Shown one piece after another: positions 73-64,000 of a stretch of 64,000 nt of DNA. Below the pieces are notes generated by a model, which had not been told where the DNA came from, did not search any database, and saw nothing but the letters and a program-made list of their open reading frames with translations. Made by a program: the position numbers and the translations under genes. Every line of letters starts with the position of its first letter. Positions within the stretch are counted from its first letter, which is position 1. The DNA is taken from positions 1 to 64,000 of the forward strand of contig JABLUY010000004.1 in the NCBI GenBank assembly GCA_013306675.1, in the 5' to 3' direction. This DNA comes from Thraustochytrium sp. TN22 (Eukaryota; Sar; Bigyra; Thraustochytrida; Thraustochytriidae).

Positions 73-393
73 TTGGCTTGCTCGCTGGCTACGGCGCGGC
101 GCGGCTGCCGCTGGAGCCCGCGCACAGCGAGGCCTGCGACGAGCGAGCGTGCTCGCTGCCCGCCGCGCACGGCCGCGCGGGCGCGGGCGGGCGGACGCGC
201 GGCGAGCGCGCGGCCTCGCCGCAGCCCCGCTGGAGCGCGCGAGGGGGCGCGCCGGAGGCGGCGGCGGTGGGCGCGTTTTCAAAAAGAGGCAGGGACGAGG
301 CGAGCTGGTCGAAGTCGTTAGCGCCGCGGAGACAGCGCGCGCGCGCAGGAGGGCGCGGCGCGCGGGGCCTTGGAGGCGCTCGTGGCGTGCGGG
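1..393 (+). other. 5' flank/leader of the RAMA-PHD gene
   Basis: No supported gene. The stretch is very G/C-rich with a (GGC)n run at about 46-75. An ATG at 33 opens a different frame that runs to 629 over the start of the next gene, giving a Gly/Ala/Arg-rich product typical of random reading through GC-rich DNA. It could act as an overlapping upstream frame if the mRNA starts this far upstream. Confidence 0.4.
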
Positions 394-23613: not shown

Positions 23614-23647
<34 letters not shown>

Positions 23648-24542: not shown

Positions 24543-25341
24543 GGCTGCCTGCCAAGCTGCTGGCTGGTCCGAGCTCGCGCCGCGCGCCGCGCCGCGCCGC
24601 GTCGCGCCGCGTCGCGCCGCGCTGCGCCGCCAGCAGGCAGGCGGAGGCCGCGCGCGCGCGGGGAGCCGAGGTCGGTGGGCCCGCTGGCGCCCTTGGCTTG
24701 CTTGCTGGCTTGCTGGCTTGCTGTGGAGCGGCTCGCGGGCTGCGCCGCCGACAGCTGGGCAGCGGCGGCCGAGCACGCGCGCGCGCGCGACTCCCGCGCC
24801 GAGCGCCGCGCCCCGCGCTTCGCGAGGCCAGCCGCGTGGCGTGTTTGAACGCGCCGCTGCTGATCGATCCACGAGCTCGGGCCGTCGTCCCTCTGGCTGT
24901 GACCGGACCTCCGTCGCTCGCGCGCGAGCGAGCCGTGAGCGTACCCGCCTCTCGGCCAGGGCCGGCCTGCCTGACCTCTCCGAGGCTGCCCGCGCAGGGC
25001 GAAGCGCGGGCGCACAGCGCGAGACGGCCCGGAGCGAGGCGCAGCGGGGCGGGGCCGGCTCGGAGCAGATGCCGAGAGCGAAAGGCTGAGCGAGCGCGGC
25101 GCAGCAGCGCTCGGCCGCGAAGCGAAGCGAGGCGGGCGGCTCGCTGGCGCGCGAGCGAGCCTTCGCGCGGCCACGAGCGCCACCACCAGACCGGCATACC
25201 TGGAGATCCCGCGCGCGCGCGCGGCCGTGCGGCGGGGGAGGACGCGGCCGGCGAAGAAGAAGAAGAAGAAGACCTCGCAGCTGGAGCAGCGGCGGCGGCT
25301 GCAGTACGAGCAGCAGCACTTGCTGCGCCCCTGCCAGCAGC
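24543..25341. promoter_or_regulatory. Head-to-head promoter region, BEACH/DUS3
   Basis: 799 bp between divergent starts. It is extremely GC-rich, with degenerate cgccgcgccg runs (about 24,575-24,635) and a (gcttgctg)n stretch (about 24,690-24,722). Long frames cross it on both strands but give only Arg/Ala/Pro-rich low-complexity products. No extra gene is supported. Confidence 0.5.
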
Positions 25342-33500: not shown

Positions 33501-36500
33501 TCCTCGACGAGGCCCGTGTAAAAGGCGCGGAGCCGCGAGCGGCGGTCAGGAACCGCGCCGTCTGCACCCACTTCGCGCCACGCGTCTGCCGTGCAGGTCG
33601 CCCACTTGGATGTGGCAAAGAGACGCGTGGCGGCGGAGGCGAGACCCGGATCCTGGTGCTCGTCGGGGCTGAAGAACCAGGACCCGCTCGCCGCCTTGGG
33701 TGCTGCGGCTCGCTTGGCGCGGGCGGCGAGGGCCAGGGGGCGGAGCGGAATGGCGACGGAGCCGATCAAGTCCTTGCCGAGGTCGTCCTGGTCGTAGCAG
33801 GCCAGATCGAGGCGGGCTGCGTCGGCGTCCGGGACGAGCAGCACGTGCGAGTTGTTCATGGCGGATGTCCACTTGGGCTGCTTCCCGCCGTCCATGCAGG
33901 TGGCCGTCTGAAAGGCCGTGCCGCCAGGCGCCAGGACGCCGCGCACGAAGGGGTCCTGCTGGCCGAAGGTGTCCATGCTGACGAGGTCGCGGCCGCGCAG
34001 GACGCGCACGTGCAGGCGGCCGGGAAGCGCCTGGCGCACGGGGGGTGGCTTGCTTCCGCGCCGGCCGCGCCCCTGAGAGGCTGGCGCCACGGCGGGCAAC
34101 GTCATGGATGCGAGTACAGCAGCTTGCGGGCGGTGATCGCGGGCCGCGTAGATGCCGACGAGGCGCAGCGTCCTAAAGGTGTCCTCAAAGCTGGTCGCGT
34201 GCACGACTGGCAGGACCTTTTCGACGGAGGGGACGGTCTGCGACGCGGTCGGCAGAAAGGCGTGCAGCGGGACCTCGCAGATGCCGAGCGCGTGGTTGCG
34301 GCCGAGCGCGCGGCCGGAGCTGGCCGAGAGCTCGATCCGCAGCGTGGGGATTTCCATGAGCGGCTCGGTGTCAGGGTTGAGCCGGTCCGGGGTCCACTCG
34401 ATCTCGGTCAAGAAGTTCCAGATGGCCTTGCCGTCGTTGGTGCGGGACGTCGCGGTGAGCTTGCCGACTTGCTTGCCGTGCAGCAGGACGCGGCCGGAGA
34501 CCTTGTTGGCCGAGGCGGCCTTGGCGGCCCCGAGCCCATCGAGGTCAGCGACGAGCAGGTGCAAGGTGCCGGGCGGGACGTAGGCGAACTCGTTGCGCAT
34601 CGCGACGGCCTCCTGCGGCGGGCCAGGCGCAAAGTCAATGGCGAGGCGGACCTGGCCGGCGGCCTTGCCCTTGGCGTCCAGCACGGTGACCCAGACGTCG
34701 TCCCCGTCGCGGTCTTGGGCGGCGCGCAGCAGGTTGGCGAGGTCGAGCGTGCAGGTGCCAATGAGGGTGTCGCCGAGGACCGCCGGGTTTTCGTCGAGCA
34801 CGGCGACGTGCAAGAAGCCCGGATTCTGGCCCGAGGCCATGAAGGCGACGTCGGCGGCGGCGTGCGGGATGTCGAGCGCAGCGTTCCAGACGCAGCGCGT
34901 GCCGGCGTCGTCGGCGGCGGCGCAGCGCTGGTCCTTTGGCCAGGACTTGGGTGGGCCGGGGTCCGGGCGGCCGGGGCGCTGGAGCGCGACGCGCATGTAC
35001 GGGTCCTGCTTGCGGTCGGTGATTCCGTTGGCGACATTCTTGAGGTCCCTCGCCTCGAGCGCCCAGATGCGGAGCGCGCCGGGGCCCGACTGCATCTGCT
35101 TGACGAGGGCGGCGGCGCGCGCGGCGGAGGGCGCGAAGCGCAGCTTGGCGTAGACGACGCCGACCTGGCGCTTGCCCTTGCGGTCATAGAGCGTGATCTG
35201 CCGCGGGATGGACGGGTCGTAGGCGTCTGGCCCGAGGAAGACCTCCGCGAGGTCGACGGTGCCGGTCCCCAGGCAGTCATCCGCAGTGAGCGTGTCGCGG
35301 TCCATGACGTGGACGCGCAGCTTGGGCTGGGTCTCGGCCGGCCCCAGGCCGGCGGACCCGCAGTCAAAGAAGGGCAGCTCGAGGTCCTCGTCGAGCGTGG
35401 CGGCGAGGCCGGCGTTCTGAAGGACAGCGGATTGCACGGGGCGACGCGAGGCCACGGCGGGCTCGATGGCCAGGCGCACGTACGGGTCGGACCCGCTGAA
35501 CCAGTCGCCACGGGACTTCGTGGAGACCTCCTGCAGCGAGACGTGGAGCACGCCGGCGCGTGTCTGGGTGCGCACGCGGCGCGGCGCGGCGTGGACGTCG
35601 AGCACGAGCGTGCCGGCGTCCTTGGGGCCGAGCTTGACCTCGACGTCTGTGAGCCGGTCTTTCTCGGCGCGCAAAAAGAAGGTGGAAGCCAGGACGCGCT
35701 CGCCGATGAGGCGGTCGCCGCCGAGCTGATGATCGAAGACCTGTACCAGGAGCGAGGGGAACTCGTTCGGCTGCGCGCCAGGGTACTTGAGTTGCAGGCT
35801 GCTGTTGTGACTCGCGGTCCAAGTGACATTGGTGCCCGCGTCGGCGACCCACTGCGTCTTGTCCTCGACGCCATATGGTTGCAGCGTGAGCTTGACGTAG
35901 GGGTCCTGCTTGCCGATGCCCATAAAGGCGCGGTTGCGGAGGTCGAGGCCGCGCTTGGCCGTGACGAAGATCGTGTGCGGGGCGGTCTCGTCGATCGGCT
36001 CTTTGCGCACCGGGCCCTGCAGCGCGTCTGGCTGCGCGGTCTCGGCGGGCGGCGCGCCGGGCGCGAAGCGGAGGACGACCTCGCAGGTCCCGCAGGCGAC
36101 GCGCGGCTTGCCGCGCTTCTTCTCGTACGAGAGGTCCACGGTGGCGCGCACCTCGTCGCCGCGCTGGAGCGCGGCCAGGTGCGCGGTGAGGTCGAGCGAG
36201 CCCTCGCCGATGACGCGCGAGCGCGAAGCCTTGCCGTCCTTTTTGCGGCCAAAGATGGCGGCGCGCATTTCGTCGTCGATATCCTTGACGGAGACGGCGA
36301 GGCGGACCGTGTCGCCAGCGGGCGGCGTGCCGGGCAGGTAGACCTGCATGGCGGCATCGTGTTCCGTGGGTGACCAGGCCACCTCGAGACCGGCCTCCAT
36401 GACGGGCTTGGTGTGCGCCTTTTGGAGGTCCTCGGCCCACGGCAGCAGGGTGATCTCCATGAAGGGGTCCTGCTTGGACATGAACTCGACGTTGCGCTTG

Positions 36501-38134: not shown

Positions 38135-38689
38135 CCTGCCCGCCCCGCCGCGCAGTCGAGGCGCCGCAGCGGCCGTAGACCTGCAATGCTTGGCGGCCGG
38201 CGCCCGGGTCCGAGTCACGGTCGCCCGCGCCCGCGCCCAGGCCGGCCTGGCCCAAGGGTGCGTTACGTTACGTGGCCCCTGGGGGGCGCGAGCGGGCGCG
38301 ACAGGAAAAGGAAGAGCGCCGCCGCACAGAAGAGACAGAGAGAGAGAGAGAGTCAGAGTCAGAGTCAGAGTCAGAGTCACCAGAGTCGGAGTCAGAGCTA
38401 GGATCACGTCGCAGTGCATTACATCGCATGTGCTCGTGGAGATGACTGTGAACAAGATGGACTGCACTCGGGCGTGGGCTCGGACTCTCTTGAAGGCGCG
38501 GCCGCCCTTTGCTGCCCGACGTGGCGTGGCAATCGATGGACAGATTGACGAGGAGCCTGTGAAGAAGTGCTCGAAGAAGAGCTCGAAGAAGAAGAAGAAG
38601 AAGGAGGAGGAGGCAAGGCACTGGTGCTGGCGCGTCCTGGCCTCCACGTTCATCAAGGTCACAGCAGAAGCGCAACGCGCGGCGAGAGG
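38135..38689. promoter_or_regulatory. Head-to-head promoter region with (agagtc)n microsatellite
   Basis: 555 bp between divergent starts. It contains (ag)n followed by (agagtc)n at about 38,333-38,380, then a less GC-rich stretch, then a (gaagaa)n run near 38,565-38,605 close to the plus-strand start. No gene is supported inside. Confidence 0.5.
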
Positions 38690-39124
38690 ATGCTGCGCGT
38701 GGCGGCGGCGCGCGGAGCAGCGGGCGGGTGGGCGTGGCGCGCGGCGGCGGCGCGCGGCGGCGCGGCGCGAGGGCTGACGAGCGGCGCGGGCAGCGGCGGC
38801 GGCGCGGAGGAGTGGCTGGAGCGGCGCAATGCGCAGGGCAGGGTCTTCTACGAGCACACGGCGAGCGGGCGGCGCAGCTGGGAGCGGCCAGACGTCAAGA
38901 GCGGCGCGGTGGTGCGCAGCGCCAGCGAGGTAGAGGCGATGCAAAAGGCCAAGGAGAGGCTGGAGCAGAGCATGCTCAAGAAGACCAGCAGCCGCGACCC
39001 GCTCATGATCCGCCTCGTGGACAACTTCTGGTGGTTTGCGGACCTGGCGCGCCGCGGCTACTGGGTCGGCATCGTCGCGGCCGCCTTCTTTGTGGTCAGC
39101 GAGCTCTACAAGGACTATGCATGA
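38690..39124 (+). CDS. Small WW-like, C-terminally membrane-anchored protein, possibly mitochondrial
   Basis: 144 residues from the ATG at 38,690. The first 38 residues are Ala/Arg/Gly-rich with no acidic residue, like a mitochondrial targeting peptide. Residues about 41-68 resemble a WW domain (EEWLERRNAQGRVFYEHT then GRRSWERPD), with Trp, Tyr and Trp at near-WW spacing. A charged helix follows (SEVEAMQKAKERLEQSMLKK), then an aromatic patch (NFWWFADLARRGY), a single membrane helix (WVGIVAAAFFVVSELYK) and five residues. This places the WW-like domain on one side of a membrane with the tail in it. Function is unknown. It is small and intronless, and its stop lies 154 nt from the stop of the converging BAR gene. 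Confidence 0.75.
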   Translation: MLRVAAARGAAGGWAWRAAAARGGAARGLTSGAGSGGGAEEWLERRNAQGRVFYEHTASGRRSWERPDVKSGAVVRSASEVEAMQKAKERLEQSMLKKTSSRDPLMIRLVDNFWWFADLARRGYWVGIVAAAFFVVSELYKDYA

Positions 39125-39278
39125 TGAACACATGATGGACCCAGCGACCAGCGAGCAGGCGCCGCTGGCTGACAGCCTGCGTCAGCCTCAGGAGACAGGA
39201 AGAAATACCAGTACACAGACACACAGACACACAGACACACAGGCAGCCTGAGTGAGTAAGACACACAGACAGAGACGA

Positions 39279-48836: not shown

Positions 48837-51800
48837 TTACTCATCAAGGGCCGCATTTGCGCGGCACTGGCGGAGGATACGCGCGATGCAGAGATCAATC
48901 TCCGCATAGTTGCGGCGCATGGGAAGGGAGCCGTGGTCGAGGAGAAGCTTGGCGACGTCCTCGGGCGCGGCGAGCACGTAGGCGCCGAGCAGGGCAAAGG
49001 TTGGGCGGTTCGTGTCGGCGTCGTGGACCAAAAGGAGGCGCTTGCCAGCATTGATGGCGGTGCGCAGTTCCTCGAGGACCTGGCGGCTCTGAAAGACGCC
49101 ATTGGTGAGGACGAGGATGAGAAAGGTGGACGCGAGGACGGCATCCGAGACGCCGCCGGCTTCCGAAGGCGGAGCGGCGTCGGCCGAGAGGGCGCAGGCG
49201 ATACCACGGCGCGCGAGCTTGCGGGCGAGCAGGGCCGCAAGGTCGTCGGCGGGCGCAGATCGAGCATGGCAGACAAAAGGGTGCAGGCCGTCTTGGTCAT
49301 CGTCGCCCGAGGGGACGTCTTCGAGGGCGGCAGCGGGCTCGTCGTCGCCGTCGAGAGGGCCAATGGGCTCGGCAAAGAAGGGGTCGAACTCGCTCACAGA
49401 CACCTTGCCGCCCTGGGAGACGCGAACGCGGACCTTGCTGGCCGGAGTCCAGCGCTTGGCGACCTTGCCGTAGGGCATAGCGATGCCGGAGTCCGGGCTG
49501 AGGAGCACGAGATCCCAGGGTAGCCTGGGCGCATGCAGGGCGTGTTGCGCGCGAAACATGGCGACGACGAGCTTGATGAGGCGCGCGGGGTGGGCGGCGG
49601 AGGCGCTGACGCAGATGCGGAGAAGGTTGATCTCGGCTTCGAGGATGAAGGCGTCGGCACCGAGGTAGAGCAGGGCGCGGTCGCCGCCGAGGATGGGGCT
49701 GTCGGGCGTGACGGCGGCGTAGGGCCCGGCCTCGTCCTCCTCGTCGGCAACGCGCAGCGCATAGGTGACACACTGTGCGACGAGGCGCGGAAAGACGCCG
49801 TCGGGGAAGAAGGTGGCGGAGAAGTCGAGCTCGCAGGTGAGGCCCGGTTCGAAGCCGACGTAGGGGTCGAAGACCTCGTCCTGGCCGGAGGCGGCGAGCT
49901 CGAGCAGGGACGGGAGCAGGTAGGCGCGGTCGGCAGAAGCGGGCGCGTGCTCGTCGTTGGCGTCGCCGTCGCCATCATCGCCGCCAGCACCAAAGGGCCA
50001 GGGCGCGAGGAGCTGGTTGTCCCGGAGAAAGGCGGAGAAGAAGTCGGCATCGGCATCGCTGTTCCAGAGCGCGCGCAAGAGGCGGTCCGAGGCGACGGCG
50101 CTGGCGCAGAGGCGGGCGTAATCGCGACGCAGGTCCGGGTCGGCGTCGACGACGGGCGAGGAACTGGGCGCGTCCACGGCGGGCAGGACGGCCGCGATCT
50201 TTGCGCAGAGCCACTGCGGGTCGAGCACGACGACGAGAGCGAGGTCCTCGGAGGCGTGGGAGTGCAAGAGCACGCCGATGCGATGCAGGTGCGCGAGCAT
50301 GGCGTCGACGTCGGCACGCTCGCGGCCATAGGTCTGCGCGACGTCAATGACGGTCTCGTAGAGCACGAGGGGCTCGTTGCGCTTGAGCAGGTCATCGTGG
50401 ATCTTGAGCCACGCCAGGGGCAGCTCCTGGCGGACGTGCGGCTGGGCGCGCGCCGTGGCGGCGAGCGCGGCGCGCAGCGAGGCGGCGCGATCGCTGGCGG
50501 GCTGGGTGTTGTCAATGTGGAAGAAGGTGAAGTTGTTGGCGGGGCGGACGAGGTTGACAAAGGCCGTGTGCGGGATGTGCTCGCGCAGCACGGCGTCCAC
50601 GAGGCGCAGGTCGCGCACGTAGTCGTAAAAGGTGCCAATGAGGACGATGGGGGCGTCGGGCGCGCGCAACTGCAGCGTGTCGAGCCAGGTGCGGACCTCG
50701 TGCAGCGCGGCGGCCTGGCGACCGGCGTGCACGACCTCGCGCATGTCGAAGACGATGGCGAAGAGGCTGAGGTCAGAGATGAGGACGTCGTGCACGGTGC
50801 GGTGCGCGAAGGCGCCGCTAAAGTCCCAGATGGAGAAGCTGACGTCGACGTCGAGCTCGTCGTCGGGCTTGACGGAGGCGCGGCGCAGGCGCGCCTGGTC
50901 GACGTCGCGAAGCACGAAGCGGTGCGGGGTCTCGCCGTCGGCGAGCGAGCGCGAGGAGAGCGCAGAGAGCCCGGACAAGGCGGAGCGCGCGTCGTCGTTG
51001 TCGTCGTCCTCGGCGTCGTCGTTGTCGACATGGCGGCGGGCGACGGCCTCGTCGGGGTCGTCGAAGGCGCCGGCGGCGCTGCCGTTGTCCTCGATGTCGC
51101 TGCTCCGGTCAAGCTCGGCGTCCGAGCCGACCTCGTGGCTGTACGCGGCGCGATGCAGACGACGGTGCGAGTTGCTCGCTTTCTTCCGCAGGCCACCGTT
51201 GTGGTGCGCGCGGCGCGGCAGCGAGCGCTGCACGGCGCCGGCGACCCAGCGCGAGAGGCTCTTGTGGCGGCCGGCGCCACCGGCCGCGGCGAGGCGACGC
51301 AGCGCGGCGCGGCGCACCTGGTCGTCGAACTGGCCGTCGTCGCTCTCGAGCGCGTGCCAGTCGCGGCCGCGCAGGCGGCAGACAGCAGCAATGTCGGTGG
51401 GCATGTAGGCCGAGGTGGGCGGGAGGCCCATGAGCGAGCGCATGGTAGCGGACTTGCCGGAGGCGGTCTGGCCGAGAACCGTGAGCTTGGTGCGCCCCCA
51501 GGCGGTCTTCTCGTCCTCGTCCAGCACCGCCTGCACGGCGCCGAGCCAGCGCTCGCCGTCGAGGGGCTCCGGCGCGAGGCGGCGGTTGTTCTCGAGACTG
51601 CGCTCGATCTTGCGCAGCACCGCGATCCTGGCGATGGGGTTGAAGCGCAGCTCGAGCTCGACGAGCGTGCGGTTGCGCGTGAGCGCGCCGGCGAAGGCGC
51701 GCGCGCCGTCGTCGCCGATGGCGTTGCCCTCGAGCTCGAGCGAGGCCAGCCCGGTGTTGACCTTGATCGCCTCGGCCAGCTCGAAGGCGCCCACGTCGTG

Positions 51801-52310
51801 CACGCGGTTCGCCTGCAGGTCCAGCACGCGCAGCGTCGAGTTGCGGCGCAACGAGCCGGCCAGCGCCGCGGCGCCCTCGTCGGCCACCCAGTTCTGGCCC
51901 AGGCGGAGCTCCACGAGCGTCGCGTTGCTCAGGAGCGCGCGCGAGAGCGCGCGCGCGCCCTTGACGCCGATGCTGCTCTCGCGCAGCCGCAGCGACGTCA
52001 GCGAGGCGTTCGCCAGGAGCGCGTCTGCCAGCGCCAGCGCGCCCTCGTCGCCGATGAAGTTCCCGTTCAGCCGCAGGTCCACCAGCGTCACGTTCACGCG
52101 CAGCGCCTGCGCCATGGCCTCGGCGCCCTCGGGGCAGATGCTGTTCCCGCCCAGGTCCAGCTTGGTCAGCGCCGTGTTGCGCTCCAGCTCCTCGGCCATC
52201 GCGCGCGCCACCTCGTCGTCCACGCCGCACCTCGTCAGCGTCACGCCCTTGACGTGGTTCTCGCGCAGCACTGCCAGCGCGGCCTCCACGCGGTCGCCGG
52301 AGTCCGACAT
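48837..52310 (-). CDS. LRR-Roc-COR (ROCO) protein with C-terminal TIR-like domain
   Basis: 1,157 residues from the ATG at 52,310. Residues 1 to about 265 are eight or nine leucine-rich repeats of the ribonuclease-inhibitor type with a 28-residue period (LDLGGNSICPEGAEAMAQAL, LRLNGNFIGDEGALALADAL). The Roc GTPase follows: P-loop LGQTASGKS at about 277-285, a long disordered acidic insert, switch motif WDFSG at about 493, and VLIGTFYDYV at the base-recognition position. A COR-like region spans about 640-1000 (YETVIDVAQTYGRERADVDA, VVVLDPQWLCAKIAAVLP). The last about 150 residues (from 1,008) read as a TIR domain: HPFVCHARSAPADDLAALLA, ASTFLILVLTNGVF, QVLEELRTAINAGKRLLLVH. ROCO proteins are GTP-regulated scaffolds, and TIR domains signal in immunity or cleave NAD+. 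The plan is that of an intracellular receptor. Confidence 0.85.
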   Translation of the reverse strand: MSDSGDRVEAALAVLRENHVKGVTLTRCGVDDEVARAMAEELERNTALTKLDLGGNSICPEGAEAMAQALRVNVTLVDLRLNGNFIGDEGALALADALLANASLTSLRLRESSIGVKGARALSRALLSNATLVELRLGQNWVADEGAAALAGSLRRNSTLRVLDLQANRVHDVGAFELAEAIKVNTGLASLELEGNAIGDDGARAFAGALTRNRTLVELELRFNPIARIAVLRKIERSLENNRRLAPEPLDGERWLGAVQAVLDEDEKTAWGRTKLTVLGQTASGKSATMRSLMGLPPTSAYMPTDIAAVCRLRGRDWHALESDDGQFDDQVRRAALRRLAAAGGAGRHKSLSRWVAGAVQRSLPRRAHHNGGLRKKASNSHRRLHRAAYSHEVGSDAELDRSSDIEDNGSAAGAFDDPDEAVARRHVDNDDAEDDDNDDARSALSGLSALSSRSLADGETPHRFVLRDVDQARLRRASVKPDDELDVDVSFSIWDFSGAFAHRTVHDVLISDLSLFAIVFDMREVVHAGRQAAALHEVRTWLDTLQLRAPDAPIVLIGTFYDYVRDLRLVDAVLREHIPHTAFVNLVRPANNFTFFHIDNTQPASDRAASLRAALAATARAQPHVRQELPLAWLKIHDDLLKRNEPLVLYETVIDVAQTYGRERADVDAMLAHLHRIGVLLHSHASEDLALVVVLDPQWLCAKIAAVLPAVDAPSSSPVVDADPDLRRDYARLCASAVASDRLLRALWNSDADADFFSAFLRDNQLLAPWPFGAGGDDGDGDANDEHAPASADRAYLLPSLLELAASGQDEVFDPYVGFEPGLTCELDFSATFFPDGVFPRLVAQCVTYALRVADEEDEAGPYAAVTPDSPILGGDRALLYLGADAFILEAEINLLRICVSASAAHPARLIKLVVAMFRAQHALHAPRLPWDLVLLSPDSGIAMPYGKVAKRWTPASKVRVRVSQGGKVSVSEFDPFFAEPIGPLDGDDEPAAALEDVPSGDDDQDGLHPFVCHARSAPADDLAALLARKLARRGIACALSADAAPPSEAGGVSDAVLASTFLILVLTNGVFQSRQVLEELRTAINAGKRLLLVHDADTNRPTFALLGAYVLAAPEDVAKLLLDHGSLPMRRNYAEIDLCIARILRQCRANAALDE

Positions 52311-53133
52311 GGCGCTCCGAGCGCTGCGCCGCCGCTCCGCTGCCTGCGCCGCTCCGCTCCGCTGCCTGCGCCGCTCCGCTCCGCGCGCGCCCCTGCGCGG
52401 CGCCTGCGCCGCGCCGCGCCGGGCCGCGCCGGGCCGGCCGCGCCCACTTCCGGGTCTGCCGGGCCGCGCGCTCAGCTGCCTCGCCAAGCCTGGCCCGCGC
52501 TCGGGCTGCGCGCGTCAAGACCGGCCTGGCCACGCCCGCCCGCGCGAAAGCACAGCCTTCGAGCTGGCCCGCGCCCCGCCAGCTGCCCGAGGCGTCGTCC
52601 GCGGCCGCCGAGTTGCCCGACCGCGCCTGGCGGCGCTGCCAGGCGCCGCGCGGGTGGGTGGGTCTGCGCGCGGCGTGGCGTGTCGAGGCGAGGCGTGGCG
52701 TGGCGTGGCGTGGCGTGGCGTGGCGTGGCGTCGCGTAGCGTCGGCGCGGCGCGGCGCGGGCACTGGCCCAGGGCCCGGGGCCCAGGCCCGGCGGGAGGAA
52801 GGCCGAGCTGGGGCTGTAAGTTAGGTTTGAAGCTGGTCTGTCTCAGGCTGTCTGTCGTCTGTTTCCTTTCCTTTCCGGCCGCCCTCTGTCTTTCCGTCTG
52901 TCTGGGTCTGTCTGTCTGTCTGGGTCTGTCTGTCTGTCTGTCTGTCTGCCTATCTGTCTGTCTGTGAGATGATGATGCCTTGACAGAATGACAGAGTGTC
53001 CGCGGCAGCCGAAGTGTGGAGAGTGTCGTGAGCGCGCGCGTGCAGCCTGGCCCGAAACGGCGCTGTCCCCAGTACGCGCGGCGGCGGCCACTCGGGGCGG
53101 CGCCCGGCGCTCGTGGTCAGCGCGGCCTCGCGA
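52311..53133. other. Intergenic with (ggcgt)n and (tctg)n repeats
   Basis: Upstream region of the LRR-Roc gene and left flank of the transposon. It holds a 5-bp repeat (ggcgt)n at about 52,695-52,733 and a (tctg)n microsatellite at about 52,883-52,967. Frames through it are low complexity, so no gene is called. The promoter of the minus-strand LRR-Roc gene must lie at its left end. Confidence 0.5.
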
Positions 53134-53503: not shown

Positions 53504-55729
53504 ATGGCGCGCACTCCAAGCATCTGCGTGGTGACCTCGGATGCTGGGCTCAGCCCGGACAAGGTCTTAGAGCCTGCCGGAGCACAGGCGTCGCCACCGG
53601 CGTCACGGTGCACGTGCGAGTTGGCGTGGTGCCAAGCGAAAGACGGTATCTTCCGCACGAGCCAGATCTACAGGAAACGACGTTTTCGCGGGGTGGTCTC
53701 GAAGAACGCGGAGACGGACTCTGACAAGCAGGATCAGCGTGCGCGAGACCGAATCTTCACCCAGCTGCGGCCGAAGTCTCAAGCCGAGCTGTCGCCCAAC
53801 ACGAGGGCGCGATTCCGGTGGCACCACTTCCGCCCAGAGTCCTTTCGCTTCGACGAGAAGAAGGGCGACTGGGTTTTGAAGACGAGCTCGATCACTCAGG
53901 TGATAGCGATGGAGACCATGATGACACCGCCACCAACTCGCGAACCAGCCGTGTGGAACTCGAGCAGGTGGGTTCTTCAACACGAGAGTGCCACGCCGAC
54001 TTCAACGGCGGAGCGAAGACTCGCGAGTCAAGTTGCGTCTCCGGAACGCAAGGCTCTTGGGCGCCGCGCTCATTCGGCCGCTCGTGCAGCCGAAAGTGAT
54101 CGGGAGCACGCGCAGCAGCAGCTGGAGAAGAAGAGAAAGGCCGAGACTGCCCTCGCGCTGCGACGAGCAACGGAGGCCGAGGCGAAGCTGTCACGCCAAG
54201 TTCACGAAGCTAGCGTCGCAGAGTCTAGAATCAGGGCAAACTCGGAGCTGACAGTGGCGGCTTCTGTATCCCGCCAGATGCTGAAATTCAAGGAGATGAT
54301 GAAGGCGAGGAATGCTGCCAAGGGTTCTCAGCGTTCGGCAGAAAAGGCCACCTTCGACGCGATCGTCCTGGACCTGAAAGCCGACAAGGCAAAGCTTAAA
54401 GCCGACAAGGCAAAGCTAGAGCACGACAAGGCGAAGCTGCAGGCCGACAAGGCGAAGCTGCAGGCCGACAAGGCGAAGCTGGAGGCCGACATGGCCTTGT
54501 TTCAGTCGATGTTAGCTTGCGCCGACACCGAGAAAGAGAAGATCAGGGCGAGCACGGTTGATGCCGAGGCACGGATCAAAGCTCTGCAGACGGAACTCTC
54601 CCACTCAAAGGCGGCCAACGAAGAGAACGAGCAGGTGATCAAGATTCTCAGTGCGACTCGCACTGAGGCAGACCCTCTTCGGTGGAACGTGTTCAAGTCA
54701 ACACGGCGCTTCGCCGACAAGATCAAGTTCTATACTGGGGTGTCAAGTGTCAAATGCTTCGAAAAATTGGTTTCGCTCGCTCGCGTCGCTGGTGGAGACG
54801 ACGCCCTGCAGCGCCCTGCAAGCACCGCGGCCTGGAAGGCTTTCAAGGAGGGCAATAGGGACTTAAAGCCCCAGTACGTGAGCACCAGAATGACGTCCAA
54901 GTCCGCCTCAACCAGCGCGTCGTGCCGGAGTAGCGCAGCCCGCCTCGTGCTCGAAGATCGCCTTCTCATGACGCTGATGATCCTGCGCCTGAACCTGAGC
55001 CAGGTAGTAATCGGATCGCTGTTCGGCGTGAACCAGGGCACAGTCTCGCGCAACTTCGAGTTCGGGATCCAGACGCTGTACGAGGTCTTCAGCCATGGCT
55101 TGGAGACACCTGACTCAGAGATGCTGAAAGCGTCCTGCCCCGACAAGGTCAAGAAAAAGTTCGGGAATCACATGATCAGCTGGCTCCTCGACGCGACGGA
55201 GCTCGAGATTCAGGTCCCCGATAACCCTCTAGCGCAGAGTGCGACCTGGAGCGAGTATAAGTCGCGCAACACTGCGAAGCTGCTCTTAGGTTTGACTCCT
55301 AGCGGCTACGTTGGTTGGGCTTCCCAGGCCTACCCGGGCAGGATCTCCGATCCTGTGATCACGGAGCGCTCGGGGTTCTACTCGGAGTGTGTGCACCCAA
55401 CTCAAACCATCATGGCGGACAAGGGCTTCATGTTGCATGCGCCGCTGGCCAGCCGTGGTGCGCAGCTCTACGTTCCGCCCAAGCGATTCAAGGGTCAAAA
55501 GGTGCTGTCTCAAAGCGAGGCAAACGATACCCGCAAGATTGCCAACTTTCGCATTCACGTGGAGCGAGCAATTAACCGTGTCAAGGACTTCCATTGGCTC
55601 ACGAGTAAGGTTGCACTCCACCAAGCTGACCTGATTACACCTGCCTTCAAGGTCGCTTGCTACATCACTGCACTATGCGGCCCTCCAATCACCGCACCTT
55701 CAAACACCGCATCAAGCGGAAAAAAATGA
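53504..55729 (+). CDS. Transposase: THAP-like finger, coiled coil, DDE (DDE_Tnp_4/HARBI1-like)
   Basis: 741 residues from the ATG at 53,504. The N-terminus has a THAP-like zinc-binding pattern: CTCELAWC at about 33-40 and RWHHFRPESF at about 105-114, where THAP domains end in C/H-x-x-H-F. Residues about 289-333 are heptads of the ADKAKL type repeated six times (a 21-bp tandem repeat), giving a coiled coil. A helix-turn-helix follows (LSQVVIGSLFGVNQGTVSRN). The DDE core has Asp563 (LLDATELEI), Asp639 (IMADKGF) and Glu687 (HVERAINRVKDF), the standard Harbinger/IS5-type triad, with the RxKxF tail after the Glu. All catalytic residues are present. Its stop lies 3 nt from the stop of the converging SWIM gene. 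Confidence 0.9.
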   Translation: MARTPSICVVTSDAGLSPDKVLEPAGAQASPPASRCTCELAWCQAKDGIFRTSQIYRKRRFRGVVSKNAETDSDKQDQRARDRIFTQLRPKSQAELSPNTRARFRWHHFRPESFRFDEKKGDWVLKTSSITQVIAMETMMTPPPTREPAVWNSSRWVLQHESATPTSTAERRLASQVASPERKALGRRAHSAARAAESDREHAQQQLEKKRKAETALALRRATEAEAKLSRQVHEASVAESRIRANSELTVAASVSRQMLKFKEMMKARNAAKGSQRSAEKATFDAIVLDLKADKAKLKADKAKLEHDKAKLQADKAKLQADKAKLEADMALFQSMLACADTEKEKIRASTVDAEARIKALQTELSHSKAANEENEQVIKILSATRTEADPLRWNVFKSTRRFADKIKFYTGVSSVKCFEKLVSLARVAGGDDALQRPASTAAWKAFKEGNRDLKPQYVSTRMTSKSASTSASCRSSAARLVLEDRLLMTLMILRLNLSQVVIGSLFGVNQGTVSRNFEFGIQTLYEVFSHGLETPDSEMLKASCPDKVKKKFGNHMISWLLDATELEIQVPDNPLAQSATWSEYKSRNTAKLLLGLTPSGYVGWASQAYPGRISDPVITERSGFYSECVHPTQTIMADKGFMLHAPLASRGAQLYVPPKRFKGQKVLSQSEANDTRKIANFRIHVERAINRVKDFHWLTSKVALHQADLITPAFKVACYITALCGPPITAPSNTASSGKK

Positions 55730-55732
55730 TCT

Positions 55733-56935
55733 TTACCACATGTCAGGACTCTCGTCAGAGTGCTCGTCGAAGATGGGATCGAGGGCCAACTCGGTGGATT
55801 CGTCGATGGGGAGCTGGTCGAGGCCGGTTCTGCGTAGCTCCGCAGCAGCACGGTCCTTCCAGAAATTCTTGGACACGAAACCGTTCAGCACCGGCGTAAA
55901 CATTTGCGAGGCGGCAGACTCCCCACCTGGGCATGTCTCTGCGCCCGCCGCGATGCACTCAGCTAATGCTTTCACGTAGTTGCTGTTGCGGCCCCTCTCG
56001 GCGATGTCGCGCAGTGTTGCAGCATGGACCTCGGGAGGAAACGGGTTGTACTCGAGTCGGCCAAGAGTGTTCTGCCGGCAGACGGGTTCGCCGTATCGCC
56101 TTTTCTTCGCACGAGGGGTTCGCTGGGCTCGCTCGAAGATGAGGTAGGCGAGGGGGTTATTTACCAGGTCCTCGTCTGCCTCTTGCCTCGGCCGGTTCCA
56201 CTCGCACCTCCTGTCGGTGGCAGGGCCGTCTTCACAATGGTCACGTTTGAGGTTTTGGACGGCCTGCAGCAGTGCGCTCACATGCACACAGCCGCTGTCG
56301 GCACGCGCCGCGGGACACTCGCACATTTGGTCCTTGATCTTGGTGATGACCGGGGGCCGGGTGTGTGGGCGCCACTGGACCTCGCATTTGGCGTAGACCT
56401 GATACACGCCGTTGACCATTGACCTCGGGCAGAGAAGCCTGAGCCAGCAGGTGTCAGGGAAGCGATCGCCATTGCTCGGGTAGTAGGCGCCGAATCCGCG
56501 CAGGTGTGTGCGGAAGCAGATGCGCTTGTAGCCCTTCTCAAGCACCCCGTCCTTCGTGCATACGTCCTTGAAGTGCGCTTGCAAGACCGTCTCGGAGAGA
56601 ACTGGCGCGCGCTCTTGCATCTCACCGATGTTCGAGATCCAGTCCTCTTCCTGAATGCCCTTGAGCATCGTGCTGACCTCGGCGTTGTCGATGAGTGGAA
56701 GCTCGTGGGTTCTGCGCCCGTTATTGCGCAAGATCTGGAGAGCGCTCAGGCCTTCTGGGCAGCGTAAGTTGGTGAGCGCTTTGTTCTCCTTGCGTGCCTC
56801 CTCCTCAACGCGCAGCTGCATTCGAACATCAGCGCGGAGCTCAGCCACCTTTCTGTTGCCCGGAAACTGACCGCGAGTGCGAAGCCAGCGAGCCAGCTGC
56901 GCTTGCTTCGCCGTATCTACCTCGCTTTCAGCCAT
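55733..56935 (-). CDS. Transposon-borne SWIM zinc-finger protein
   Basis: 400 residues from the ATG at 56,935. A helical start (TAKQAQLARWLRTRGQFPG, with a SAP-like feel) leads to a SWIM finger with the C-x-C-xn-C-x-H pattern (CECPAARADSGCVHVSALLQ), preceded by a beta-rich segment (VYQVYAKCEVQWRPHTRPPV). The C-terminal half is charged and of unknown fold. SWIM fingers bind DNA or protein and, from memory, occur in the second gene of ISL2EU-type transposons next to a YqaJ-type nuclease. Here the nuclease partner is the XPG-like gene upstream, whose stop overlaps this start by 8 nt (ATGGCTGA). It probably acts with the transposase. Confidence 0.82.
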   Translation of the reverse strand: MAESEVDTAKQAQLARWLRTRGQFPGNRKVAELRADVRMQLRVEEEARKENKALTNLRCPEGLSALQILRNNGRRTHELPLIDNAEVSTMLKGIQEEDWISNIGEMQERAPVLSETVLQAHFKDVCTKDGVLEKGYKRICFRTHLRGFGAYYPSNGDRFPDTCWLRLLCPRSMVNGVYQVYAKCEVQWRPHTRPPVITKIKDQMCECPAARADSGCVHVSALLQAVQNLKRDHCEDGPATDRRCEWNRPRQEADEDLVNNPLAYLIFERAQRTPRAKKRRYGEPVCRQNTLGRLEYNPFPPEVHAATLRDIAERGRNSNYVKALAECIAAGAETCPGGESAASQMFTPVLNGFVSKNFWKDRAAAELRRTGLDQLPIDESTELALDPIFDEHSDESPDMW

Positions 56936-58229
56936 CTTGGCCCTCGGTGAGATCGACAGTCTCAAAACCATCCTGCGGTTGCACTTTGGTGACCCCGTCA
57001 CCCACGTCGTGTTGCTTGGACGCACGGCCGTCGCACTCACACGTCCCGCGGAGGCCGTTGCACTCGCAGTCACACGTCTCGCGGAGGCCGTTGCACTCAC
57101 ACCTCTCGCGGAGGCAAAGTAGCCCCAGCGCGATGAGGTCAACGTGATCCTTGTCAAAGCCCGTCTTGCCGACGAGCGCCGACACGTCGGTCTCGGCCAG
57201 CACGTCCTGATCCAGCGAGTCGACCTTCCCCGAGGCGAGGAAGAGCCCAACGCCGGCGAGAAGACCGCCCTTTGCCGTCTTCATCCGCAAGCAGACTTCC
57301 TCCTTCAGCGCCCGGGGCCAACCCATGTGCGCGATGAGCTTGCCGGCGAGCTTCTCGGGCTTGAGCCACTCCGTTACGTCCACCTGCTCATCAAGAAGCT
57401 TGTCGAGGACGCGGAGCGCCGTCAAAGGCCCAACGCCCCTGATGTCGTGGTAGTCAGTCTTGACGAGCAGTGCGTACGCCAAGCACACGGCAGCCGCCGC
57501 AACCTGGGGCTCGCAGTCTTTCTCATCTGCGAGCTCGTCGATGATGTGTCCAAGGTCACGTTGACACGCTTCCCCGGACTCTTCGTCCAGAGGCGCTGTA
57601 GGTCCGGCAGGCTCGAAGAGGGTTCCCATGCCGGCATGCCAGTCTCCAGAAGGTACGACGAGGAGGTTGCCTCCTTCGTGCACGAGCATGTCCGAGTCGA
57701 CCGAGATGATGTATTGAATGGTCTGTTCGCGAAGCATCGCCACGAGAGTGTGGTCTGCCTCGTAAGGCGCCACCACGTACGCGAATCCACCCTCGCGCAG
57801 CCGCCGAATGACAGCATAGACGAGCTCACGCGAGACGCCGGCGTTGACCTTGGAGAGCTTCTCCAAAAGATCGGGAGGAGGCTCTTCACCCTTTGCAGCG
57901 TGCTCCTGAAGCTGACTTGCTAGGGCGTCGGCCTTGTCCTTGCGCTTCTTGCTTCTCGCCGAGTTTGTACGACACTTCATCGGAGTTGGCGCCCCATCAA
58001 AGGCAACGATGGGCCTCGCACCCATTCTTTTGAGCTCCGTGAGCCGACTGACAAAGCTCTCCACGGTCTTGGTGAAGTTCTTCTTCGTGATGTCCTCGTG
58101 CATGACACTCACGTACATGTGGAGCCAGACAGAGGCGTCCACGCCGACGTCCTTGTCGGACAAGAGCTCGCAGAGCTTGACCTCGCGCGACTTGGATGCC
58201 AGAAGCCGCCGAAGGCCAGTAACGCCCAT
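56928..58229 (-). CDS. Transposon-borne XPG/FEN1-family structure-specific nuclease
   Basis: 433 residues from the ATG at 58,229. The start MGVTGLRRLL is typical of the family. The N region has GVDASVWLH (Asp31) and FDGAPTPMKCRTN. The I region has APYEADHTLVAML and SVDSDMLVHEG, giving the acidic metal-binding cluster. A helix-hairpin-helix follows (TDYHDIRGVGPLTALRVL). All key acidic residues appear present. The C-terminus has a Cys-rich direct repeat (ECNGLRxTCxC, two copies, nt about 57,040-57,115) and no PCNA-binding box that I can see. XPG-family enzymes cut DNA flaps and junctions, so the protein may process transposition intermediates. It lies inside the inverted repeats, so it belongs to the element and not to the host repair set. 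Confidence 0.88.
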   Translation of the reverse strand: MGVTGLRRLLASKSREVKLCELLSDKDVGVDASVWLHMYVSVMHEDITKKNFTKTVESFVSRLTELKRMGARPIVAFDGAPTPMKCRTNSARSKKRKDKADALASQLQEHAAKGEEPPPDLLEKLSKVNAGVSRELVYAVIRRLREGGFAYVVAPYEADHTLVAMLREQTIQYIISVDSDMLVHEGGNLLVVPSGDWHAGMGTLFEPAGPTAPLDEESGEACQRDLGHIIDELADEKDCEPQVAAAAVCLAYALLVKTDYHDIRGVGPLTALRVLDKLLDEQVDVTEWLKPEKLAGKLIAHMGWPRALKEEVCLRMKTAKGGLLAGVGLFLASGKVDSLDQDVLAETDVSALVGKTGFDKDHVDLIALGLLCLRERCECNGLRETCDCECNGLRGTCECDGRASKQHDVGDGVTKVQPQDGFETVDLTEGQDG

Positions 58230-60451: not shown

Positions 60452-63400
60452 CTAACGGTCGACCCCGTCGGCAGCGTCCGTCATTATCTTGAGAATGTGC
60501 ACCATGCCGGACCGATCACCAACAACGATGGTGGCATTATAACGCATGCAAGCCTGTATGGAATGATCCGTCGTGAAGCCCACCCGGCCATCGACAGACA
60601 GGATCTGGACTCCATTCGTCACCGCAACCGGAAGGGCGCGATGCGCGGCGTTCGGACGCGCCAGCGCGGCTTGCGCGCCCACTTGCGCACCGGTCTGCAG
60701 GTCCCAGTGCAGCACAGTGCCTTTCCAGTCCTTGCTGATGATGATGCCGCCGTCCAGAGCCACGCTGTCGACAGACCGAGTGTGCCCCTCGAGCACGTGC
60801 AGCATTTGGCCGGTGTGAGCGTCCCACACGCGCACCGTCTTGTCGTCAGACCCAGACACGATCCGGTCGCCGTCCAAAGCCACGCTGTTGACAGACCAAG
60901 TGTGCCCCTCGAGCACGTGCAGCATTTGGCCGGTGTGAGCGTCCCACACGCGCACCGTCTTGTCGTAAGACCCAGACACGATCCGGTCGCCGTCCAAAGC
61001 CACGCTGTTGACAGACCGAGTGTGCCCCTCGAGCACGTGCAGCATTTGGCCGGTGTGAGCGTCCCACACGCGCATCGTCTTGTCCCAAGACCCAGACACG
61101 ATCCGGTCGCCGTCCAAAGCCACGCTGTTGACAGACCGAGTGTGCCCCTCGAGCACGTGCAGCATTTGGCCGGTGTGAGCGTCCCACACGCGCACCGTCT
61201 TGTCGTGCGACCCAGACACGACCCGGTCGCCGTCCAGAGCCACGCTGTTGACGTATGACGTGTGTCCATCACTCTCGCGGAGTTGGTCGCCGGTGCGAGG
61301 GTCCCACACGCACACCGTGTTGTCCGAAGGAGGAGAAAAAGCAAACGGAAGGCCAGACCCAGACACGATCCGGTCGCCGTCCAAAGCCACGCAGTTGACT
61401 CTGGACGTGTGCCCCTTGAACACGTGCAGCATCTGGCCGGTGTGAGCGTCCCACACGCGCACCGTCTGGTCGTTCGACCCGGACACGATCCGCTCGCTGT
61501 CCAAAGCCACGCTGGAGACTCTTGACGTGTGCCCCTCGAGTACGCGCAGCTGATCACCGGCGTGAGCATCCCACAAGCGCACCGTGTTGTCGTCAGACCC
61601 AGACACGATCCGGTCGCCGTCCATGGCCACGCTGTATACGGCAGACGTGTGCTCCTTGAGCACCTGCAGCTGGTCGCCAGTGTAGGCGTCCCACACGCGC
61701 ACCGTAGAGTCGTGAGACCCAGAAACGATCCGGTCGCCGTCCAAAGCCACGCTGTGGACCCTTGACGTGTGCCCCTCGAGCACATGCTGCTGGTCGCCGG
61801 CGTGAGCGGCCCACACGCGCACCGTGCCGTCGGAGGACCCAGACACGATCCGGTCGCCGTCCGAAGCCACGCTGTAGACAAAAGACGTGTGCCCCTCGAG
61901 TACATGCAACTGGTCGCCGGTGTGAGCGTCCCACACGCGCACGGTCTGGTCTGAAGACCCAGACACGATTCGGTCGCCGTCCGAAGCCACGCAGTGGACT
62001 CTTGACGTGTGCCCCTCGAGCAACAGGAGCTGCTCCCCGGTGTAAGCGTCCCACACGCGCACCGTCTTGTCGTCAGACCCCGACACGATCCGATCGCCTT
62101 GCAGAGCCACGCCTTGAACGGTGTCCTCATGGCCCCTGAGCAAGTGCAGGAGCGGACCGCACGGCGGAGCGAGAGATTGCTTGACGGGGCAGAGCCACGG
62201 GTGTTGCGGCGGTTGGAGCGTGCGTCGCAGGGGGTGATCGGGGGCTGTGGTGCGCGCGAGGACCTGGCTGGCGAGCTGGTCTGGGTCTGTGATGACGGCG
62301 TCCAAAGCCTTGCGGAGGAGTCGCGGCGTGTCGCTCTCAACATCGAGCCTGACCCGCTGCGCATCGTGGAGAACGCCGCCGAAAAAGGCGTGGCGCTTTG
62401 CGGGCGACGACGGGGCTAGTAGGAGCTCACGGACCCAGTCGAAGTTGTTGAGCAGCTCGCGCGCCTCCTCGGGCTCGCCTGCCTCTGTGAGGTGAAAGAT
62501 AACGTGCCTAAACGCGAAAGCGGTGCCAGTGCAGTCGTTGAGGAGAGCCTTGGCGAGCGTGGCGTGGCCTTGGCTGTGGCAAACCAGGAGCCTTTTGCCA
62601 GCCCGGCTTTTGTCCGTGAGGAAGTCGGGCATGGTCATGTGAATGAAGCGCACGGTGGAGGCATCCACTTCGAGGAGCTGCGCAGCCTCAGCGAGCAGGA
62701 CCTGGGTGTCGGCAAGGTCGCACTCGAAAATCTGCGCCACCACGCTGAGCGGGAGTGCGTCGCGCGCGGCGCACATGGCGCCGAGCAGGTTGGCGTAGAC
62801 GTCCTTGTCGCCCCGCAGCGGCCCGTCGAGCAGCCTCCCAAAGAGCTCCACGTACATGGCGTCGAGGCCGGAGGGGGAAAGGTCAACCAGCTGGGCGGCC
62901 GTCAGGTCGCTCATGCCATCCTCCATGAGCTTGCCGCGGAGCAGGGCGACGTACAAGAAGAGGCCCTGCGCGTCCTCCTCGAGCTGCGGCAGGGCAGCTT
63001 CGAGCTCCGCGTCGCTGGCCATGAAGCCCTTGAGCTTGGCGCGAAGGAGGCCAGCGATGTCGGCCTTGTTGCGCTCGTCGTCGAGCTCAAGGATGAGCGG
63101 GTCGTAGTGGGCCAGGCGCTCGCGGATCTCGTCCTCGGGCCTCGAGGCGACGAGGAGGCCGAGCCAGTCGGGCGTGCTGCGGCTCCACTCCTGGCGAATG
63201 ATGCGGAGGAGCGCGTCGCGCTGCTCGGGGTCGGCCTCGTCCAGCGCATCCAGCGCCACGATGACGCGCGTCGCGGGCGCAGCGACCTTGGAGCACGGCT
63301 CGGCGATGATGCGCTTGAACAGCGTGAGCGGGTCCTTGAGGTTGGATACGACGCCGCGGAGCTCCGGCGTGTATTGGTCGCGCAGGCCCGGGACGACCGC

Positions 63401-63970
63401 GGCGAGCTGGTTGGCGATGCTGAGCAGGCAAACGAGCACGTCCTTCGCCTGCACGTCATGGTAGCGGAAGAAGTGGGCGGCGCCGATGATGTAGGGCTGC
63501 GAGCGGGACAGGCGCTGCGAGACACGGGCCGTGATGGACCGCCGGGGCATCTCGGGCGCCGCTAGACCGAGCAGAACGGCGCAGATGGTGGCGATGGTGA
63601 CGGATTTGCCAAAGCCGGCAGGGCCGAGCATGGCCATGATGCGCGAGCCCCAGCCGGACTTTCTGGCCCAGTCGTCGAACTCACGGAGGATCCAGAGCCG
63701 GGTCCCGGTCTGGTACTCGCTCGCCTTGCCGCGGCCTTCGACGGCAAAGTCGTAGCCAAGCTTGAAGAGGGGCGGTGGCAGCGCCTGGGTCGCTCCCTCC
63801 TCGAGCGATTCGACGCCGGCCTTGGTGCGGATCATGCCGGCGAGCCTGTGCATGGCCTCGTCAAACTGAGCGTCCTCGTCGCCGCCGGACAGGTCCATGT
63901 AGAGATCTCTTTGAAAGATCATGCCGACGGCACCGGTCCAGTCATTTTGGCGAGGAATGGACGACTCCAT
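60452..63970 (-). CDS. NACHT-WD40 (STAND) protein, probably TIR-NACHT-WD40; 5' end beyond window
   Basis: 1,172 residues from the ATG at 63,970, but the frame stays open to the window edge and reads LKPKRRLAVV before that Met, so the real start is probably outside. Residues 1-50 (AVVMESSIPR, WTGAVGMIFQRDLYMDLSG) match the C-terminal end of TIR domains of the type ending in W-x-G-x-x-G ... LYxDLSG. The NACHT-type NTPase follows: Walker A GPAGFGKS at about 115-122, Walker B VIVALDALDEAD at about 233-244, then helical STAND regions. From about residue 611 there are 12 WD40 repeats of 40 residues, ending in a degenerate blade. Repeats 8-11 are nearly identical in DNA. One repeat (61,261-61,404) has an 8-residue insert. 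The family senses ligands through the WD40 part and oligomerises through NACHT to trigger the N-terminal effector. Confidence 0.88.
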   Translation of the reverse strand: MESSIPRQNDWTGAVGMIFQRDLYMDLSGGDEDAQFDEAMHRLAGMIRTKAGVESLEEGATQALPPPLFKLGYDFAVEGRGKASEYQTGTRLWILREFDDWARKSGWGSRIMAMLGPAGFGKSVTIATICAVLLGLAAPEMPRRSITARVSQRLSRSQPYIIGAAHFFRYHDVQAKDVLVCLLSIANQLAAVVPGLRDQYTPELRGVVSNLKDPLTLFKRIIAEPCSKVAAPATRVIVALDALDEADPEQRDALLRIIRQEWSRSTPDWLGLLVASRPEDEIRERLAHYDPLILELDDERNKADIAGLLRAKLKGFMASDAELEAALPQLEEDAQGLFLYVALLRGKLMEDGMSDLTAAQLVDLSPSGLDAMYVELFGRLLDGPLRGDKDVYANLLGAMCAARDALPLSVVAQIFECDLADTQVLLAEAAQLLEVDASTVRFIHMTMPDFLTDKSRAGKRLLVCHSQGHATLAKALLNDCTGTAFAFRHVIFHLTEAGEPEEARELLNNFDWVRELLLAPSSPAKRHAFFGGVLHDAQRVRLDVESDTPRLLRKALDAVITDPDQLASQVLARTTAPDHPLRRTLQPPQHPWLCPVKQSLAPPCGPLLHLLRGHEDTVQGVALQGDRIVSGSDDKTVRVWDAYTGEQLLLLEGHTSRVHCVASDGDRIVSGSSDQTVRVWDAHTGDQLHVLEGHTSFVYSVASDGDRIVSGSSDGTVRVWAAHAGDQQHVLEGHTSRVHSVALDGDRIVSGSHDSTVRVWDAYTGDQLQVLKEHTSAVYSVAMDGDRIVSGSDDNTVRLWDAHAGDQLRVLEGHTSRVSSVALDSERIVSGSNDQTVRVWDAHTGQMLHVFKGHTSRVNCVALDGDRIVSGSGLPFAFSPPSDNTVCVWDPRTGDQLRESDGHTSYVNSVALDGDRVVSGSHDKTVRVWDAHTGQMLHVLEGHTRSVNSVALDGDRIVSGSWDKTMRVWDAHTGQMLHVLEGHTRSVNSVALDGDRIVSGSYDKTVRVWDAHTGQMLHVLEGHTWSVNSVALDGDRIVSGSDDKTVRVWDAHTGQMLHVLEGHTRSVDSVALDGGIIISKDWKGTVLHWDLQTGAQVGAQAALARPNAAHRALPVAVTNGVQILSVDGRVGFTTDHSIQACMRYNATIVVGDRSGMVHILKIMTDAADGVDR
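60781..62124 (-). repeat. Tandem 120-bp coding repeats (WD40), high internal identity
   Basis: Eleven consecutive units of 120 bp (one of 144 bp) encode the WD40 blades. The three units 60,781-60,900, 60,901-61,020 and 61,021-61,140 differ from each other at only 2-5 positions in 120. Older units toward 62,124 are more diverged. This gradient points to recent tandem expansion or gene conversion at the 3' end of the gene. Confidence 0.9.
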
Positions 63971-64000
63971 GACAACCGCAAGCCTGCGCTTGGGCTTGAG

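Follow-up and report, generated by a model that had tools for sequence, protein, structure and literature searches.

A TIR-NACHT-WD40 gene of Thraustochytrium sp. TN22 whose WD40 sensor probably diversifies in the manner of fungal HNWD proteins

At one end of a 64,000-nucleotide stretch of the Thraustochytrium sp. TN22 genome (positions 1 to 64,000 of contig JABLUY010000004.1, assembly GCA_013306675.1; hereafter the window) lies a gene whose C-terminal WD40 units are close to identical, and an earlier note on this DNA had read the few differences among the youngest of them as the mark of diversifying selection, by comparison with the fungal HNWD proteins. The locus raises a question: does selection renew particular residues of these repeats, or do the differences reflect drift, a mutational process or the assembly itself? 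The evidence gathered here suggests that the gene probably belongs to a family of TIR-NACHT-WD40 (NLR-like STAND) proteins with a WD40 sensor that diversifies as that of fungal HNWD proteins does.

Domain layout and gene family

By Pfam profiles the window gene has the domain order TIR–NACHT(NPHP3_N)–WD40, and its parts are placed as follows.

60452..64000, minus strand: open frame of the TIR-NACHT-WD40 gene, running on past the window to C398:64297 (1281 codons)
63857..64000, minus strand: the part of the TIR_2 domain within the window (full match C398:63857-64270, E 2.3e-12)
63140..63706, minus strand: NPHP3_N (NACHT-type) NTPase domain, residues 198-386, E 2.4e-16
63602..63625, minus strand: Walker A motif, GPAGFGKS
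60671..62137, minus strand: WD40 array of 12 units, 11 of them ungapped and 40 codons long and one with a nine-residue insertion
60455..60670, minus strand: C-terminal tail, perhaps two degenerate blades (by eye, compared with the HET-E model)

The NTPase domain scores 60.8 bits with NPHP3_N (cut-off 24.8) and 15 with the Pfam NACHT model, below the 26.7 cut-off of the latter, and a Walker B motif (RVIVALDALDE) is also found. The TIR domain carries a C-x-x-E-F motif, present in most paralogues too, whose Glu we take to be the catalytic one. The description of the gene as an NLR of HNWD type stands as far as the NACHT-type NTPase and the WD40 units go, but the N-terminal part is a TIR and not a HET domain: HET is absent among the six Pfam families that match the gene at E <= 1, so that it is HNWD-like in working and not an HNWD member by the HET criterion. 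Tandem Repeats Finder assigns the array a period of 120 with scores of 798 and 940, so the array itself is not a product of chance, and framework identity across the 11 units is 0.805. At the other end of the gene, the frame ahead of the TIR domain is without an ATG and is closed by a stop a short way upstream, so that either an unseen first exon is needed or this copy is damaged; some paralogues (e.g. C243, C216, C12) do have an in-frame Met before the TIR. On either side of the region immediately 5' of the frame (~C398:64300-65800; L039) are two apparent inverted copies of each other, seen by eye (around CCCCTTTTGGGG / CCCCAAAAGGGG), possibly marking a mobile element at the 5' end.

Relatives outside the genome were found with the whole protein, which has at least 102 matches (8000 candidates scored). 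Residues 1-600 gave no protein homologue at E <= 1e-3, a comparison of the TIR with PDB sequences retrieved no TIR, NCBIfam profiles gave no match, PADLOC returned bSEFIR alone (E 0.009), and a search of plasmid DNA gave no match. The nearest named relatives among the 8000 scored candidates are HET-E-1-like proteins of Durusdinium trenchii, at most 40% identical over 84% of the query and carrying PF24883 and WD40; in the D. trenchii proteins P0002-P0004 and P0008 the units are far less alike than those of the window gene.

Within the genome itself (37.9 Mb, 453 contigs) the window protein has at least 94 matches, a lower bound since 39 of 287 candidates were scored. The Pfam NACHT model finds eight places in the same genome, none of which coincides with those of the family. 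The frames of at least 600 residues that show a C-x-x-E motif or a Walker A motif number 25 (frames with neither are uncounted); 20 of these have the TIR C-x-x-E motif, 21 Walker A and 22 Walker B. For the repeats, 363 unit hits were reduced to 296 ungapped units of 40 codons, grouped by 34 gene labels, after dropping 33 with indels, 31 that were short, one at an edge and two that overlapped. One label stands for a lone unit, read in a frame of C12 on the opposite strand; C77, C149 and C422 each pool two frames; and the set is without the contig-end parts of C283, C451, C215 and C216. Clade A holds 245 unique units, including the 11 of the window gene, and clade B holds 26 (C61, C277, C428).

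Other TIR-bearing and receptor-like genes occur in the genome. TIR_2 has 123 matches at E <= 0.001, 114 of them above the Pfam cut-off, across the 37.9 Mb. At G000:C160:1247-4627, four TIR matches 1043 bases apart, with a TGA inside each, are a tandem array of a TIR-coding unit, and two receptor-like genes (G000:C442:53788-59295 and G000:C409:317418-319925), 98.3% identical over ~3.57 kb before they diverge, are partial duplicates or haplotypes. In the window, a 1216-residue frame at 48837-52487 (minus strand) with LRR_6 repeats, ROC, COR-A and a weak TIR_2 match (25.3 bits, cut-off 28) is, judged by its domains, a second receptor-like gene. A DDE_Tnp_4 transposase with HTH_Tnp_4 (53504-55729, plus strand) lies a few kb from the receptor gene, and an XPG/FEN-like frame (56928-58229, minus strand; XPG_N and a partial XPG_I) lies downstream of it. 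Further off are a 3854-residue frame with 11 C2 stretches, EF-hands and a SAM domain (27569-39133, minus strand), a 1666-residue frame with RAMA domains (370-5370, plus strand) and a 3528-residue neurobeachin-type BEACH protein (14904-25490, minus strand). In a one-gene tree of 31 rows the BEACH protein falls, with support of 98/95, in a group of 13 rows with a brown alga and a diatom, and on this one tree the lineage is called stramenopile-like and no more.

Variable positions and tests for selection

The youngest units set the question out most simply. A recount agrees with the earlier note in finding 2 differences in 120 bases between 60781-60900 and 60901-61020 and 3 between 60901-61020 and 61021-61140, and a re-reading returns the same residues on the minus strand: Asp, Tyr, Trp and His at the codons at 60845, 60965, 61085 and 61205, and Trp (60898) or Arg (61018) at the site after G-H-T. 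In the phase used in this analysis these features are as follows.

60791..61150, minus strand: the three youngest units (the same repeats as 60781-61140 in the other phase)
60845..60847, minus strand: unit position 22 (Asp), equal to HNWD codon 25 and WD40 hotspot D-1
60965-60967, 61085-61087 and 61205-61207, minus strand: unit position 22 in the sister units (Tyr, Trp and His, respectively)
60896..60898, minus strand: unit position 5 (Trp; Arg in both neighbours), among the seven high-dN/dS HNWD positions and outside the strong four

That all changes replace a residue is correct for these three units, where five bases in four codons differ (Asp/Tyr, Trp/Arg, Val/Met, Tyr/Trp), but only for them: 61021-61140 and 61141-61260 differ at 13 bases, and three of their codon changes (Ser, Leu, Thr) are silent; the claim of no silent change is thus limited to the three youngest. 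Nor are the five changes proof of selection by themselves, since neutral change in these units would be replacing in a share of 0.74 or 0.78, depending on which of two mutation models is used, and five of five would thus arise by chance with a probability of ~0.23-0.29. As a sign of selection they are too few, and Val/Met lies in the framework; it is the data pooled over paralogues that show a replacing excess.

Which positions vary can be asked of the pooled units directly. By amino-acid entropy, the top four of the 40 positions are 6, 8, 22 and 24, and this holds in clade A, in clade B and in the window gene alone. Strong positive selection has been described at HNWD unit codons 7, 9, 25 and 27, which flank the conserved codons 8 and 26 (PMC1805685). 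A second source sorts HNWD repeats by positions 10, 11, 12, 14, 30, 32 and 39, and also prints one repeat of HET-E (PMC12222747); reading its numbering onto that printed repeat is an assumption, one that agrees with the flanking rule, and it makes 12, 14, 30 and 32 equal to unit positions 6, 8, 22 and 24, and 11 equal to unit position 5. Aligned in this way, the four most variable positions correspond to the four codons under diversifying selection in HET-D/HET-E. Of the two variable sites that the earlier note singled out, the Asp/Tyr/Trp/His site is among the strong four, and the Trp/Arg site is only in the wider seven. The 296 units hold 259 distinct four-residue combinations; the fungal HNWD count was 55 in 69 (PMC1805685). 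The same ranking in six other proteins gave exactly these four on top only in P0007, a fungal protein (Athelia) with 11 units; P0012 and P0006 (8 units each) rank some of the four high but not all, and P0017, P0021 and P0015, with 2-4 units each, have too few for an entropy ranking.

Where these positions would lie bears on what they do. By a published sequence rule, unit positions 6, 8 and 22 are R1-2, R1 and D-1, the usual top-face contacts in WD40 proteins (PMC3419727), which would put three of the four sites on that face. Taken with the fungal models, the rule suggests that all four are at the surface. A face of this kind could also serve propellers that bind many normal cell partners, in which case the proteins would not be immune or self-recognition receptors: highly repetitive WD40 proteins generally vary at interaction hotspots (PMC5587647). 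We think this very unlikely, since the order TIR, NTPase, repeats and the genome's 123 TIR_2 matches are, by analogy, like expansions of receptors.

For the test of selection, unique units were joined by a minimum spanning tree of 270 edges, and the 55 edges with at most 12 differences were used. On these edges, one-base codon changes at the four sites were 67 replacing to 1 silent, and at the other 36 positions 64 to 56. The 67:1 departs from the neutral share whether this is taken from mutation only (0.78; p 1.2e-6) or weighted by base use at 4-fold sites (0.82; p 2.7e-5). A C422 unit with masked letters was left out of the rebuilt tree and of the likelihood tests below; on the rebuilt tree the four sites have 74 replacing changes to 1 silent, and p stays <= 1.7e-4 whichever single gene is omitted. 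Counting each kind of event once gives 42:1 at the four sites and 53:43 elsewhere, and the multi-base codon changes at the four sites replace the residue in 30 of 30 cases. The rate ratio by path averaging (at most 12 differences) is 2.4-3.1 at the four sites and 0.47-0.58 elsewhere; for the four sites it is 3.0-3.9 on edges with at most 5 differences and 1.2-1.6 on edges with at most 24. By counting, the per-codon test on pooled repeats that the earlier note had suggested comes out in its favour, with the four HNWD codons varying most and replacing changes exceeding silent ones.

A custom site-by-site likelihood model, fitted on a grid, gives a more divided picture. In clade B, positions 5, 6, 22 and 24 reach p < 0.05 and position 8 does not, and at three cut-offs the four sites pooled give p 0.027, 0.0037 and 0.00026. 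Pooled in the same way, the sites fall short of significance in clade A (p 0.10, 0.19, 0.21), and in the 116-unit set of that clade position 22 alone is at p < 0.05; we attribute the high silent rate at those codons in clade A to multi-base changes. The TIR, NOD and helical regions have dN/dS values of 0.28-0.68 in 30 comparisons with ten paralogues and are thus constrained. Two close pairs of genes lack the pattern: a tandem pair on C397, 96% identical, shows 2 replacing changes among the 32 codons of the four sites vs 20 among 288 in the framework, which is no excess, and in the C442/C409 pair the 10 four-site codons compared are unchanged. The replacing excess is a property of arrays with near-identical units and not of all genes.

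Some of these observations would also fit relaxed constraint, in which positions 6, 8, 22 and 24 are unimportant loop residues that drift while the framework is conserved. The four are non-framework positions in any WD40 repeat, the likelihood ratios of clade A are compatible with drift, and the C397 pair is without the excess. Drift, however, expects ~78-82% of changes to be replacing, whereas 67 of 68 were observed (74 of 75 on the rebuilt tree), and equal rates are rejected in clade B; relaxed constraint is on balance unlikely. Selection could also be replaced in the argument by hypermutation targeted to the four codons, of a retroelement-like or repeat-induced kind, and both the focus of change on these codons and the frequency of multi-base changes there (30 codons) are in keeping with it. 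The silent changes, however, show no matching rise, at 1 of 68. The known bacterial hypermutation system has an adenine bias; here the six base exchanges are similar in number (17-28 each) and without that bias. No hypermutation signature was seen in the unit changes, and we regard this source as extremely improbable. Selection for new residues at the four positions is the reading carried forward.

Exchange of repeats between loci and the assembly

The search for paralogues sharing repeats, another suggestion of the earlier note, turned up identical repeat DNA between otherwise diverged genes. Two blocks of the window gene are identical to stretches of paralogues.

60779..60967, minus strand: 189 bp identical to the C422 paralogue, over the youngest units
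63496..63673, minus strand: 178 bp identical to the C77 paralogue, in the NTPase region

The NOD of the window gene and that of the C422 gene differ by 19% over all bases and by 22% at 4-fold sites. Unit frameworks are more alike within genes (identity 0.755) than between genes (0.666). Shared blocks together with likeness within genes appear to be the expected trace of gene conversion or unequal exchange, and misassembly is a possible source of a shared block too.

If the assembly had set units in the wrong order or number, or mixed near-identical units between loci, part of this pattern would be an artefact: misjoining can shuffle units and could make the shared 189 bp. Short reads do not recover HNWD arrays (PMC12222747), in C428, C331 and C216 the array breaks off at a contig end, and 13 of 34 tabulated places are no more than 10 kb from such an end where 7.7 are expected, an excess that could come from a subtelomeric location or from assembly breaks at repeats. 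Misjoining does not, however, explain why the same four positions differ by replacing changes alone in two clades, and the window array is 60 kb in from the end of its 378-kb contig; an artefact as the whole explanation is highly improbable.

Working model and comparison with known systems

The family would work, on the preferred reading of a diversifying sensor, in several steps. Near-identical 40-codon units would be duplicated and exchanged within and between loci, keeping the framework uniform and making a pool of interchangeable blades, and at unit positions 6, 8, 22 and 24, which would lie on the binding face, selection would favour a change of residue; for both of these steps there is support in the sequence. 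The tail after the last unit may add two degenerate blades, for a predicted 14 in all, which by analogy with the fungal model would form two seven-bladed rings. Going by the domain families, a ligand on the propeller would release the NACHT switch, and the TIR domains would then gather and give a TIR-based death or defence signal. The ligand could come from a pathogen or could mark another individual. An enzymatic output of the TIR, and a role in defence or self-recognition, are likewise putative.

The closest known system is the HNWD family of Podospora anserina (HET-D, HET-E, HET-R; PMC1805685, PMC2873952, PMC12222747). The two share a NACHT-type NTPase with C-terminal WD40 units of high identity, the same four variable codons with a replacing excess, and repeat DNA shared between loci (with misassembly an alternative source here). 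The number of units could also give 14 blades, as in HET-E, which has been modelled as two seven-bladed rings of 14 blades (PMC12222747). They differ in that the window gene has a TIR_2 domain where HNWD proteins have the TIR-related HET domain, its unit is 40 residues long rather than 42, and it belongs to a distant lineage; HNWD proteins are tied to incompatibility and to polymorphism of repeat number among strains, whereas here one genome was read. The interpretation of the earlier note is, with the corrections given above, supported.

Other systems are alike in part. Fungal NLRs whose WD, ANK and TPR repeats are highly conserved internally also have the binding face of those repeats under positive selection, but these are from fungi and include other effector domains and repeat types (PMC4986451). 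The candidate immune receptors of the ROCO type in brown algae are shuffled in a stramenopile too; they are GTPases that vary by exon shuffling and splicing, in contrast to the one-frame WD40 array here (PMC11378527). In bacteria, fungi and some protists there are highly repetitive WD40 proteins with near-identical units and diversity at predicted interaction hotspots, and the 2017 survey that describes them had already recorded this hotspot diversity with protist groups included (PMC5587647). That work is a survey of all WD40 proteins without a family-level test, and in its text neither "positive selection" nor NACHT appears. Among the matches listed from open-licence PubMed Central papers there was no earlier report of diversifying WD40 NLRs in non-fungal eukaryotes.

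A wider claim can be set beside the narrower one: that about thirty TIR-NACHT-WD40 loci share a pool of interchangeable blades, that selection on the four HNWD positions was reached independently, and that together they form a large innate repertoire in a single-celled, stramenopile-like protist with more than 100 TIR domains. To this we give about an even chance. The same mode of diversification is known for fungi, where it serves self/non-self recognition, and the likeness between a protist sensor built of near-identical blocks and the fungal self-recognition proteins suggests a shared way to many receptor specificities. If this is true, WD40 propellers would be a general scaffold for evolvable recognition across distant lineages, and the protist would offer a single-celled system for asking what such receptors bind.
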